From Chloroflexota bacterium (GTDB taxonomy: Bacteria > Chloroflexota > Limnocylindria > Limnocylindrales > CSP1-4): a DNA stretch of 37,764 bases. The stretch covers positions 199-37,962 of the forward strand of contig PMLK01000098.1 of NCBI GenBank assembly GCA_003158875.1, read 5' to 3'. The position numbers were made by a program, and so were the translations under genes. The notes under the pieces were generated by a model. The model was given only the letters and a program-made list of their open reading frames with translations. It was not told the origin of the DNA and did not search any database. Shown here in pieces: positions 16,796-20,096 of the stretch; position 1 is the stretch's first letter, and each line of letters begins with the position of its first letter.

Positions 16796-17572
16796 ATGGC
16801 CGGCATGGACGAGGAATCGGGCAACAGCGCGGACACCGAGGCAAAACCGTCGGGAACGAACCCTCGACCGGGAGGCGGACGCAAGACCACTGCCGATAAG
16901 ACATCGGCGGCTGCGGCTACGCCCGCGTCTCGGGCGCCCAGGGCCGCCGGTCCGGCAAAGGCGACCTCCCGCCCCACACGCGCGAAGCCTGCCACTCCCA
17001 CCACGCCCGCTCCCGCGGCCACTGCCAGCGCAATTTCCGCCACGGCCAGACCAGCGAGGCTGGAGGCCGGCCCAGTCAGCGACGACGTGGTCAGCGCCGG
17101 CGTCGTCAACATCAACCAGGGTGGCGCCGGGGAAGTCGAAGCCGAGTCGATCTCGATACACCAGGGCGGCATAGGCGCCGCCTCCGCCGAAGACATCACG
17201 ATTACCGCCGGCGGCATCGGCATGGCCAGCGCCGACGACATAGCCGTTCGTATCGGCGTCATCGGCATCGCTCGTGGCGAACGCGTTTCCACCGAGCTTG
17301 GCCCCATCGGCCTGGCCATCGGCCGGGAGGTGTCGGTTAAGCAAGGATTCGTCCGATTCGCACTGGGGCGGGACATCCGCTTCCGGCAGGGCGGAGCCGG
17401 CACGGTCGCGGCCGCCAAAGTCACCTTCGAAGGTCAAAGTGGAGCGCTGATCGTCGTCGCCCGCAAAGTCGAGGGCAGTGTTCGGCCGCTGCTCGACTGG
17501 CGCGGTGCGCTCGCCGCCGGAGCCGCGCTGGGCGTCGTCGTCGGCCTGCTGGCCCGCCGCAAGCGCGACTGA
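16796..17572 (+). CDS. Predicted beta-solenoid repeat protein with C-terminal membrane anchor
   Basis: I do not recognise the family. The 258-residue product has a ~95-residue Ala/Pro/Thr-rich disordered head, then about eight consecutive ~15-residue repeats (about residues 102-225) of the form hydrophobic-x-hydrophobic-x-x-GG-IG-x-A-x-x-ED. Examples are SIHQGGIGAASAEDI, TITAGGIGMASADDI and STELGPIGLAIGREV. Regular 15-residue, Gly- and Ile/Val-rich repeats suggest a right-handed beta-solenoid, loosely like bactofilins. The tail is a single hydrophobic helix followed by RRKRD, so the protein is probably tail-anchored with the solenoid in the cytosol. The ATG at 16796 has AGGAG 8 bases upstream; ATG 16805 is an alternative. 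It lies between rmlD and the DegT gene. Confidence 0.78.
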   Translation: MAGMDEESGNSADTEAKPSGTNPRPGGGRKTTADKTSAAAATPASRAPRAAGPAKATSRPTRAKPATPTTPAPAATASAISATARPARLEAGPVSDDVVSAGVVNINQGGAGEVEAESISIHQGGIGAASAEDITITAGGIGMASADDIAVRIGVIGIARGERVSTELGPIGLAIGREVSVKQGFVRFALGRDIRFRQGGAGTVAAAKVTFEGQSGALIVVARKVEGSVRPLLDWRGALAAGAALGVVVGLLARRKRD

Positions 17573-17645: not shown

Positions 17646-17651
17646 TATACT
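17646..17651 (+). promoter_or_regulatory. Possible -10 box upstream of the DegT-glycosyltransferase pair
   Basis: TATACT in the 209-base gap after the solenoid gene, about 130 bases before GTG 17782. No clear -35 element is visible. The long leader would contain the short ORF at 17718. Confidence 0.35.
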
Positions 17652-17717
17652 TCGAGGCCGGCGAGCGGCGTCCGAGGATCCCTCAGTCAAACCTCGAGCC
17701 AATTACAGGAGTTCCTC

Positions 17718-17750
17718 GTGATCGACTCGCCGCGGCAATCAATCCTTTGA
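17718..17750 (+). CDS. Possible 10-codon leader ORF
   Basis: GTG 17718 follows ACAGGAG by 6 bases and reads VIDSPRQSIL before TGA 17748. It ends 31 bases before the DegT start. The strong ribosome binding site with nothing else to serve suggests a translated leader peptide or a dead start site. The peptide has no run of one amino acid that would indicate attenuation. Confidence 0.25.
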   Translation: MIDSPRQSIL

Positions 17751-17781
17751 TGCGACGCTCGTCTGTCGCCGGAGGTGAGGG

Positions 17782-18888
17782 GTGATTCCGCTATCTCGCC
17801 CGGACCTGGGCCCGGAGGAGGCCGAGGCCGTGGCCGCGGTCATGCGCACTGGCATGCTGGCTCAGAATCACAAGGTGGCTGAGTTCGAGGCTCGCTGGGC
17901 TGAGTACTGCGGGGTCGAGCATGCCGTAGCCGTTTCGAGCGGCACGATCGCGTTGATGTCGGTTTTCGCCGGCCTCGGCCTGGGGCCCGGCGACGAAGTG
18001 ATTACCGTCGCCCACACGTTCAACGCCACGGTCAGCTCGATCCTGTTCACCGGCGCCACGCCCGTATTCATCGATATCGAACCGGACACGTTCCTCATGA
18101 GCGCAGCCCGGATCCAAACCGCCATTACTTCACGGACGCGGGCCATCTGCCCGGTCAGTCTCTTCGGGCTGGTCGCCGACATGGACGCCATCCAGGCCCT
18201 GGCCGATCGCCACGGCCTCACGGTCGTCGAGGACGCGGGTCAGGCGCACGGAGCCGGCTATCGCGGCCGGCGGGCGGGAAGCTTTGGCTATGGCGCGTTC
18301 AGCTTCTACGGCACGGCCAACATGACCGCCGGCGAAGGTGGAATGGTCACGACCAACGACACGCGCCTTGCGGACTGGATTCGTCTGTTTCGCAACCACG
18401 GCATCCACGAGCGCCATCAGCACGAGATTCTCGGCTACAACTTCCGCATGACGGAGATCGCCGCGGCCATCGGCCTGGTTCAACTTGGCAAGCTCGAATC
18501 GAACACGGCCCGCCGCCAGGCGATAGCCGGACGGTATGAGGAAGCCCTGGCCGACCTGCCGATCCAGCTGCCGAGCTGGCCGGACGGGCGAACCCACGTA
18601 TTCAACCAGTACACGGTCGCGGTCGGCGCCCATCGCGACTCCATCGTCGCGGACATGGACGCGGCCGGCATAACGTGCGGCGTCTACTACCCAATTCCAC
18701 TCCATCGTCAGCCGTACGTGATGGAGTTGGGCCTCGAGGCGGAGTTGCCACGCACCGACGCCGCCGCCGCGACGAGCATGTCACTGCCTATCTATCCGAA
18801 CCTGACCGAGGCGGAGCAGGACACAGTCGTGGCGGCGCTGCGGGCGTCCGTTCTGCGCCACGCCACCGCCGCGGGAGACGGATCGTGA
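17782..18888 (+). CDS. DegT/DnrJ/EryC1/StrS-family PLP fold protein lacking the catalytic Lys
   Basis: The DegT family normally transfers an amino group to a keto-sugar nucleotide using PLP bound to a Lys. The 368-residue product has normal length and most family motifs: SSGTIALMSVFAGL, GDEVITVAHTFNAT, VEDAGQAHGAGY (D151 would hold the PLP ring nitrogen) and GYNFRMTEIAAAIG. But the segment that normally reads FSFYxTKNxTTGEGG here reads FSFYGTANMTAGEGG, with Ala179 (GCC, 18316-18318) at the Lys position. So it cannot form the usual internal aldimine. ColD-type sugar 3-dehydratases replace this Lys with His, so a PMP-dependent or non-catalytic role is possible. Start GTG 17782 has GGAGGTGAGG just upstream. 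It overlaps the next gene by 4 bases. Confidence 0.88.
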   Translation: MIPLSRPDLGPEEAEAVAAVMRTGMLAQNHKVAEFEARWAEYCGVEHAVAVSSGTIALMSVFAGLGLGPGDEVITVAHTFNATVSSILFTGATPVFIDIEPDTFLMSAARIQTAITSRTRAICPVSLFGLVADMDAIQALADRHGLTVVEDAGQAHGAGYRGRRAGSFGYGAFSFYGTANMTAGEGGMVTTNDTRLADWIRLFRNHGIHERHQHEILGYNFRMTEIAAAIGLVQLGKLESNTARRQAIAGRYEEALADLPIQLPSWPDGRTHVFNQYTVAVGAHRDSIVADMDAAGITCGVYYPIPLHRQPYVMELGLEAELPRTDAAAATSMSLPIYPNLTEAEQDTVVAALRASVLRHATAAGDGS

Positions 18889-20096
18889 ACAAGCGCCCGG
18901 TCTGCATGGTCGTCCATGCCTACTACGAAGAAGACCCGCGAGTCCGGCGTCAGGCAGAGGCGCTCGTCGGTGCGGGCTGGGAGGTCGACGTCTTCGGCCT
19001 GCGTTGCGAGGGCGAGGCGCCGACCGGAACGGTCGCCGGCGTCAACGTTCATCGCCTGCCGGTCGGCCGCCACCAGGGCGCCGGCCCGCTCATGTACGTG
19101 GCGGAGTACGGGGCCTTTCTGGTTCGAGCGATGTTCGCCACGACGCGAGCCCACGCCCGACGCCACTACGGCCTGATCCAGGTCCACTCCATGCCGGACT
19201 ACCTGGTCTTCGCGGCAACGCCGCTGAAGATGGCCGGCGTGCCGGTTCTGCTGGATCTGCACGAAGTCATGGTCGAGTTCTTCAAGACACGCTTCCCGGG
19301 CGCCGCCAACGGGCTGACCAACTCCCTGCTCCGCCTCCAGGAAAAGATGTCGATCGCCTTCGCCGACCACGTCTTGACCGTCTGCGATCCGTTCGCCGAT
19401 CGATTGCTGCGCAACGGCCTCAAGCCGGAGCGCCTGACCGTGGTCATGAACAGTCCGGACCTGCGCTTGTTCGATCCGAGCGTTCATCCGCGGCGCGAGT
19501 TCATGGCCGACGGCACTCTCCGGATCGTCTACACCGGCGCCCTGACGCCCACATACGAACTCGACGTGCTGCTCCGTGCCATCGCCGAGGTCCGCACGGA
19601 TCGGCCCAAGCTGCCGATGACGGTCGCGTTCTACGGGCGCGGCGATTCCAGGGATTCGCTAGAGGCACTCGCGACATCTCTCGGCATCGCCGATCTATTG
19701 ACCATGCCGGGCCGCATTCCGATCGAGCAGGTCTCGGCCGCAGTCGCGGTCGCGGACGTCGGGATCGCCCCCACTCGCCTGGACCCGTTCACCGAATTGA
19801 CCCTCTCGGGCAAGGTGATGGAGTACGCGGCCATGGGCAAGCCGGTCGTGGCCTCGAGACTGCCCTCAGTGGCCGGATACTTCGCCCCCGACACGCTCGC
19901 CTTCTACGATCCCGGCGATGCTCGCTCGATGGCAGACGCCATCCTGCGCCTCGTGGACGAGCCCACGGAGACAGCGGCTCGGGTCGCCTCGACCGCCGAG
20001 CGCATCGAAGAGTTGAGCTGGGCCCGCCAGTTCGCGGCCTACCGCGGAGTCGTGGAACAGCTCCAAGCCCGGAGGTCCGCGGGCCGCGATCGGTAG
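18885..20096 (+). CDS. Glycosyltransferase, GT4 type
   Basis: A GT-B fold glycosyltransferase of 403 residues, likely adding a sugar to a lipid-linked or surface glycan at the cytosolic side of the membrane. The N-terminal lobe starts VCMVVHAYYEEDPRVRRQAEAL with an ALVGAGWEVDVFGL strand. The C-terminal lobe has LRIVYTGALTPTYELDVLLRA, then LTMPGRIPIEQV and a GT4 E-x7-E type motif in ELTLSGKVMEYAAMGKPVVAS (about residues 302-322). The sugar donor cannot be read from sequence. GTG 18885 overlaps the DegT stop (GTGA), so the pair is coupled. The longer open frame upstream reads through the DegT gene and is not used. Confidence 0.9.
   Translation: MNKRPVCMVVHAYYEEDPRVRRQAEALVGAGWEVDVFGLRCEGEAPTGTVAGVNVHRLPVGRHQGAGPLMYVAEYGAFLVRAMFATTRAHARRHYGLIQVHSMPDYLVFAATPLKMAGVPVLLDLHEVMVEFFKTRFPGAANGLTNSLLRLQEKMSIAFADHVLTVCDPFADRLLRNGLKPERLTVVMNSPDLRLFDPSVHPRREFMADGTLRIVYTGALTPTYELDVLLRAIAEVRTDRPKLPMTVAFYGRGDSRDSLEALATSLGIADLLTMPGRIPIEQVSAAVAVADVGIAPTRLDPFTELTLSGKVMEYAAMGKPVVASRLPSVAGYFAPDTLAFYDPGDARSMADAILRLVDEPTETAARVASTAERIEELSWARQFAAYRGVVEQLQARRSAGRDR

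Follow-up and report, generated by a model that had tools for sequence, protein, structure and literature searches.

Pseudoenzymes are well known in other families. In the DegT family a described counterpart of the protein presented here is WbpE, a UDP-3-keto-GlcNAcA aminotransferase (3nu7, 3nys) with which it shares the DegT fold and the mapped pocket residues, and its Lys-bearing orthologues lie in a wbpD-E-B-A-I operon; it differs from WbpE in having no PLP-binding Lys and no close WbpA, WbpB, WbpD or WbpI partners that we could find in its genome. The same Lys-to-Ala change has been made in the laboratory in WbpE (K185A), ArnB (K188A) and GDP-perosamine synthase (K186A), which hold their ligands according to the structure titles; those changes are man-made, whereas the one reported here is natural and common to three species. 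Laboratory K-to-A mutants of sugar aminotransferases reportedly do not turn over. ColD and E1, PMP-dependent sugar 3-dehydratases, are likewise DegT-family members without the PLP Lys, but they are catalytic and have His at that column, whereas the present protein, with Ala in that place, falls among WbpE-like aminotransferases, ColD and E1 not being close kin. With EryCII and DesVIII, heme-less P450 homologues acting as glycosyltransferase activators, only a proposed logic is shared, that of an enzyme fold minus its cofactor ligand working with a glycosyltransferase: EryCII stabilises and activates the glycosyltransferase EryCIII (available text of PMC3391682), its fold is unrelated, and the partner activity shown for EryCII is a guess for our protein.

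Our searches of open-access literature yielded no report of a Lys-less DegT sugar aminotransferase under selection, subscription papers being mostly outside this coverage; the accessible part of PMC9309667 holds nothing on Lys-less sugar aminotransferases, and in that of PMC6522883 the word 'pseudoenzyme' occurs in a reference title. The clade described below offers natural before/after pairs, species with the full Lys-bearing pathway next to sister species with the Lys-less protein only, so that a second, non-catalytic role of sugar aminotransferases becomes testable.

A WbpE-like protein with Ala at the PLP-lysine column

The window, by which we mean the whole 37,764-nucleotide stretch of DNA analysed, lies on contig C44 of a 2.64 Mb genome (G000) that is 91% complete. 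Its wbpE reading frame (Table 1) opens with GTG, has no internal stops in translation and matches Pfam DegT_DnrJ_EryC1 over residues 9-354 (3.6e-119). The protein is 72-78% identical to WbpE-like proteins within the genus and 60-78% identical to its 14 nearest named records (L010-L022 and the truncated L025), all from Chloroflexi and ten of them 'fen' isolates; a plasmid search matched 450 records, all below 60% identity, and was set aside.

Translation bears out the first-pass annotation of this DNA, which had reported Ala179 (GCC) in place of the PLP Lys, here within FSFYGTANMTAGEGG, with the SGT, D151 and GYNFRM motifs all kept. Its contention that a single sequencing error is no explanation also holds, because two further species (G016 and G001) have Ala at the same column, one of them with GCG; with two codons in three genomes of one supported clade, a sequencing error or assembly artefact is ruled out. 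Only two lysines, K31 and K237, occur in the window protein, and because the Lys-bearing G011 orthologue has Lys in these two columns as well, neither takes over the aldimine position; a substitute Lys, which the annotation had named as counting against it, is thereby ruled out from the alignment.

Table 1. Features of the wbpE locus, in coordinates of the window.
Feature	Position	Strand	Basis
p258, conserved upstream neighbour; contains repeats and, at its C-terminus, a hydrophobic stretch; matches no Pfam family at E<=0.001	16796..17572	+	
TATACT, 5' of the place where wbpD used to start; possible operon -10 element	17646..17651	+	
ACAGGAG, ribosome-binding-site-like, of the former wbpD	17705..17711	+	
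Scar: first wbpD codons (VIDSPRQSIL, then stop), remainder of wbpD missing	17718..17750	+	
GGAGGTGA, Shine-Dalgarno-like, directly 5' of the GTG start of Lys-less wbpE	17771..17778	+	
WbpE/DegT-family protein of 368 aa without the PLP Lys (Ala179 in its column)	17782..18888	+	translation, Pfam, orthologue alignment, tree
GCC codon of Ala179; the three Lys-bearing orthologues printed have AAG	18316..18318	+	17782 + 3 x 178
GT4-type glycosyltransferase; GTG start overlaps the wbpE stop (GTGA)	18885..20096	+	

Lysine and alanine across the orthologues

To place the substitution we read column 179 in all 76 wbpE orthologues found among 107 genomes of the family (E<=1e-90): 72 have Lys, three have Ala (G000, G016 and G001) and one, in G090 of another genus, has lost the PLP Lys with a five-residue deletion. 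Within the window's own genus the gene is present in 19 of 21 genomes, 16 with Lys and three with Ala; G013 falls below the threshold, its gene being in two pieces of which neither spans the column. The Ala trio, three species with one genome each, forms a single clade in the tree (support 100/99) and uses the codons GCC, GCG and GCC. The alignment of the closest clade that the first-pass annotation had proposed thus turned up what it had named as counting against it, close homologues with Lys (16 of the 19 in the genus); taken literally this goes against it, yet what the pattern shows is that Ala at column 179 is a derived loss and not an error.

Because the lesions of the trio and of G090 differ both in kind and in genus, the Lys-less cases, as far as alignment and tree can tell, go back to at least two independent losses of the lysine, and to two events only. 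The G090 orthologue (L144, 7999-9123) has no lysine at all at the aligned columns. Keeping wbpE is not general in the family: 31 of its 107 genomes, four of them among the 34 best, lack the gene at E<=1e-90, and loss of the whole set with wbpE included may also occur, some of these absences possibly reflecting incompleteness. Among 126 genomes of the order, 82 of them with wbpE at E<=1e-85, no further orphan copy was apparent.

The ancestral operon and its missing genes

Lys-bearing genomes of the family usually carry the order p258, wbpD, wbpE, wbpB, wbpA, wbpI, with the glycosyltransferase next within the genus. The domains are those of a hexapeptide acetyltransferase (wbpD), a Gfo/Idh/MocA protein (wbpB), a nucleotide-sugar dehydrogenase (wbpA) and a UDP-GlcNAc 2-epimerase family member (wbpI), and wbpD-E-B-A-I is the gene set given for the UDP-ManNAc3NAcA pathway in the available part of PMC10622841. 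The wbp names used here follow from these domains, the gene order and that partial text, and the WbpE-like activity is putative; no NCBIfam model listed for wbpE attained its cut-off.

We tabulated the neighbourhoods of 58 loci, 54 of them Lys-bearing (51 of the family's 72 and three from outside it) and four Lys-less. Downstream of wbpE, wbpB follows in 54/54 Lys loci, and wbpD is present in 52 of them, the remaining two (G020 and G031) starting at a contig end; at the four Lys-less loci wbpD, wbpB, wbpA and wbpI are all absent. The window locus keeps the synteny of its genus: p258 lies upstream, and the glycosyltransferase, ppi and mazG lie downstream, wherever the genus loci extend far enough. 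The p258 gene, which is uncharacterised and conserved next to the wbp operon, lies upstream of wbpE in 49 of the 58 loci; of the nine others, G020, G031 and G114 end too soon.

Searches of the four Lys-less genomes (77-91% complete, so that absences are not absolute) did not support a move of the pathway genes to another place. At E<=1e-8 all four are without a wbpD match, and at E<=1e-10 G016 and G001 are without a wbpB relative; G000 has one weak wbpB match (29%), G090 six distant ones (25-40%), and the relatives of wbpI (43-45% identity) and wbpA (27-35%) in the Lys-less genomes are distant. Among the family's 76 wbpE carriers, wbpB (E<=1e-60) and wbpD (E<=1e-50) are jointly missing only from the four Lys-less ones, an association of Lys loss with partner loss (Fisher P 8e-7) whose test ignores shared ancestry and covers two events. 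Only two other carriers are without a wbpB match, and each is Lys-bearing: G097, which has wbpD, and G042, where the matches to wbpE fall at the ends of contigs.

From the nearby rmlABD genes the first-pass annotation had guessed at dTDP-4-keto-6-deoxyglucose as substrate; descent from WbpE of a UDP-sugar pathway speaks against that guess, and the rml context was rejected as evidence specific to the substrate, rmlA, rmlB and rmlD also preceding four Lys copies (G015, G012, G007 and G009).

The reading we consider the probable one is that of a WbpE-like protein orphaned from its pathway and kept under selection as a non-catalytic protein. Its ancestor would have been a PLP-dependent 3-aminotransferase encoded in a UDP-ManNAc3NAcA-type operon; wbpD, wbpB, wbpA and wbpI would have been lost, and the catalytic Lys would have become Ala after, or along with, that gene loss.

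Remnants of wbpD and the translation start of wbpE

Upstream of wbpE the window retains a scar of wbpD and its start signals (Table 1). The hexamer TATACT occurs at each of the four Lys-less loci and at five of the six Lys-bearing loci printed, with TATAAT in the sixth (G007); a consensus promoter scan found no promoter. The wbpD stub ends differently each time: in G000 it stops after ten codons and GGAGGTGA precedes wbpE, in G016 its TGA stands immediately 5' of the wbpE GTG start, in G001 its stop and the wbpE start overlap (GTGA), and in G090 it is fused in frame to wbpE. Because of these arrangements a plausible translation start for wbpE can be proposed in each Lys-less locus, in four different ways.

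Cofactor pocket and predicted fold

Cofactor contacts were carried over by motif spacing from the structure of Spr1654, as described in the accessible part of PMC5936713, to T55, F80, D151, Q154, S174, K179, E185 and G186. By this mapping the Ala trio retains the seven contacts besides K179, with the exception of Q154H in G001; in the same partial text Spr1654 itself has His at the matching position. The G090 protein has lost F80, Q154 and S174 together with the PLP Lys, a weak enrichment of changes at the mapped cofactor residues (4/8 against 17/104 elsewhere, P 0.039). Two further changes were dropped as signs of active-site loss: H275, since WbpE itself has Ala at that column, and N53, since Ser at 53 is found in the family.

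AlphaFold2 predicts an intact fold for the window protein (mean pLDDT 94.7) and a kept fold for that of G090 (94.1). A PDB search with the G090 model retrieved WbpE, ArnB and GDP-perosamine synthase, with TM-scores near 0.9. Among these matches are, by their entry titles, WbpE K185A bound to PLP (3nys), ArnB K188A bound to PLP plus sugar (4oca) and sugar-bound GDP-perosamine synthase K186A (3dr4), the Ala of 3dr4 aligning at column 179 of the window protein. By analogy with these ligand-bound mutants, the Ala proteins should be capable of binding both cofactor and sugar, with no turnover.

The first-pass annotation had left two alternatives, a PMP-dependent reaction with another base and a non-catalytic sugar-nucleotide sensor or binding partner, and the second of these fits best. 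On the first, the protein would be a PMP/PLP enzyme with new chemistry, holding PMP non-covalently, drawing its base from another residue or from the substrate and acting in a dehydratase- or racemase-like manner on a UDP- or dTDP-sugar. This would account for the strong constraint on the Ala-clade gene and for the mapped contacts kept in the trio, unlike in G090. Yet only S5, Y42, V61, G171, A179 and L256 are common to the three Ala proteins and absent from the 16 Lys proteins of the genus, and these offer no obvious replacement base, the trio sharing no newly acquired His or Lys; wbpB, which supplied the native keto-sugar, is gone; and the laboratory mutants, said not to turn over, were solved with their ligands held. 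We regard new chemistry as unlikely. On the non-catalytic reading, the Lys-less protein probably no longer transaminates and probably binds a nucleotide sugar without turning it over, to judge from its sequence. Such a survivor would be an apo protein, or one with non-covalent PLP or PMP, that still binds the nucleotide sugar, and its closest physical model would be the laboratory WbpE K185A crystallised with PLP.

Improbable, and the least likely of the rivals we weighed, is an inactive heterodimer subunit paired with a Lys-bearing DegT paralogue, in the way that LCB1 (inactive) pairs with LCB2 (active) in serine palmitoyltransferase. A second full-length DegT protein is indeed encoded in the genome (contig C7), but its identity is no more than about 40-42% and its gene lies on a different contig, and in the DegT fold PLP and its Lys belong to one subunit. 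What such a pairing has in its favour besides is the location of sugar-aminotransferase active sites at the dimer interface, according to the accessible part of PMC5936713.

Selection on the Lys-less gene

To ask how the orphaned gene has evolved we fitted codon models; synonymous sites are near saturation and the omega values are therefore rough. Across 17 genomes, giving the Ala clade its own omega (0.041, the other branches having 0.035) brought no gain over a single omega, and fixing the Ala-clade value at 1 cost 333 log units. In a fit with the stem as a class of its own (14 genomes) the post-loss omega was 0.036 against 0.032, the stem having 0.089, and a post-loss omega of 1 cost 326 log units; omega=1 was rejected on every Ala tip (2 delta lnL 95.7, 50.2 and 33.2). 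Control genes gave, for Ala clade and rest, 0.041 against 0.051 (glycosyltransferase) and 0.065 against 0.079 (mazG). An internal branch with omega 8.9 was set aside as uninformative, its synonymous length being 0.002. These models show that wbpE in the Ala clade is still under purifying selection and not freely decaying; on the preferred, non-catalytic reading, transamination would have been lost while the folded protein stayed under that selection.

Constraint on the gene is not what it was in the Lys form. The wbpE proteins are 78.6% identical within the Ala trio against 87.2% within 13 Lys species of the genus, compared with 79.1% against 76.7% for mazG (same 3 and 13 species), and the ratio of second-position to fourfold differences is 0.20 (Ala) against 0.14 (Lys) for wbpE and 0.23 and 0.26 for mazG. 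The rate of change of the Ala-form protein is about 1.4-1.9 times that of the Lys form, with the gene's constraint about equal to that of mazG, and this mild relaxation in the trio is real.

Such relaxation, with the partner genes gone, is also what one would see in a slowly decaying relic, a gene without function whose erosion is still to come. Near-invariant positions, 112 in all, are altered in every Lys-less copy (11 in G000, 10 in G016, 7 in G001 and 21 in G090), and on the G090 branch the omega of 0.077 against 0.042 (omega=1 worse by 27) is a whole-branch average that includes the time before the loss and could mask a short recent neutral phase; the G090 copy may be a recent relic. For the Ala clade decay is already disfavoured by the rejection of omega=1 on each tip. 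The three species differ at about 49% of fourfold sites and Ala179 has survived a synonymous GCC/GCG change, yet wbpE is open in all three, whereas in neutral simulations (500 runs each) a stop-free frame persisted in 9.6, 1.6 and 0.4% of runs at 10, 20 and 30% of sites changed. We give a relic a poor chance, slightly below that of new chemistry and above that of a heterodimer.

The overlapping glycosyltransferase

If the protein is kept for a non-catalytic role, the gene that follows it is a candidate for its partner. The wbpE stop overlaps the glycosyltransferase start (GTGA or ATGA) in G000, G016 and G001; the wbpE of G090 likewise overlaps (ATGA) the gene after it, a different one of GT4 type. 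Overlaps occur at junctions of the Lys operon too (wbpD/wbpE and wbpE/wbpB in L141), so the wbpE/glycosyltransferase overlap could come from a clean deletion without selection. The glycosyltransferase of the Ala trio has a mean identity of 66.6% to those of 13 Lys species and of 84.0% within the trio, and on the trio's stem branch it has a length of 0.26 against 0.06 for wbpE, which suggests that its specificity or substrate shifted when the pathway was lost. Together, gene overlap and glycosyltransferase shift suggest that the Lys-less protein may serve the adjoining glycosyltransferase.

That it would do so by activating or stabilising this enzyme, as EryCII does EryCIII, is a tentative analogy that we think more doubtful than probable. 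Equally speculative is the fullest form of the account, in which two lineages would independently have dismantled a UDP-ManNAc3NAcA-type pathway, lost the Lys in different ways and kept the protein as a non-catalytic glycosyltransferase partner, a natural counterpart of the laboratory K-to-A mutants and a new class of sugar-aminotransferase pseudoenzyme.

Other DegT proteins with Gln or His at the lysine column

The Lys-less protein is also a warning that calling DegT genes aminotransferases by their domain alone may mislead. A distant DegT protein of a Gastranaerophilales MAG (L079, 6001-6579) has Gln at the lysine column (GFGQNQQITTGEGG) and is possibly another Lys-less member. In Shewanella marisflavi a second DegT gene (L067, 9091-10266) has His there, as do enzymes of the ColD/E1 type.
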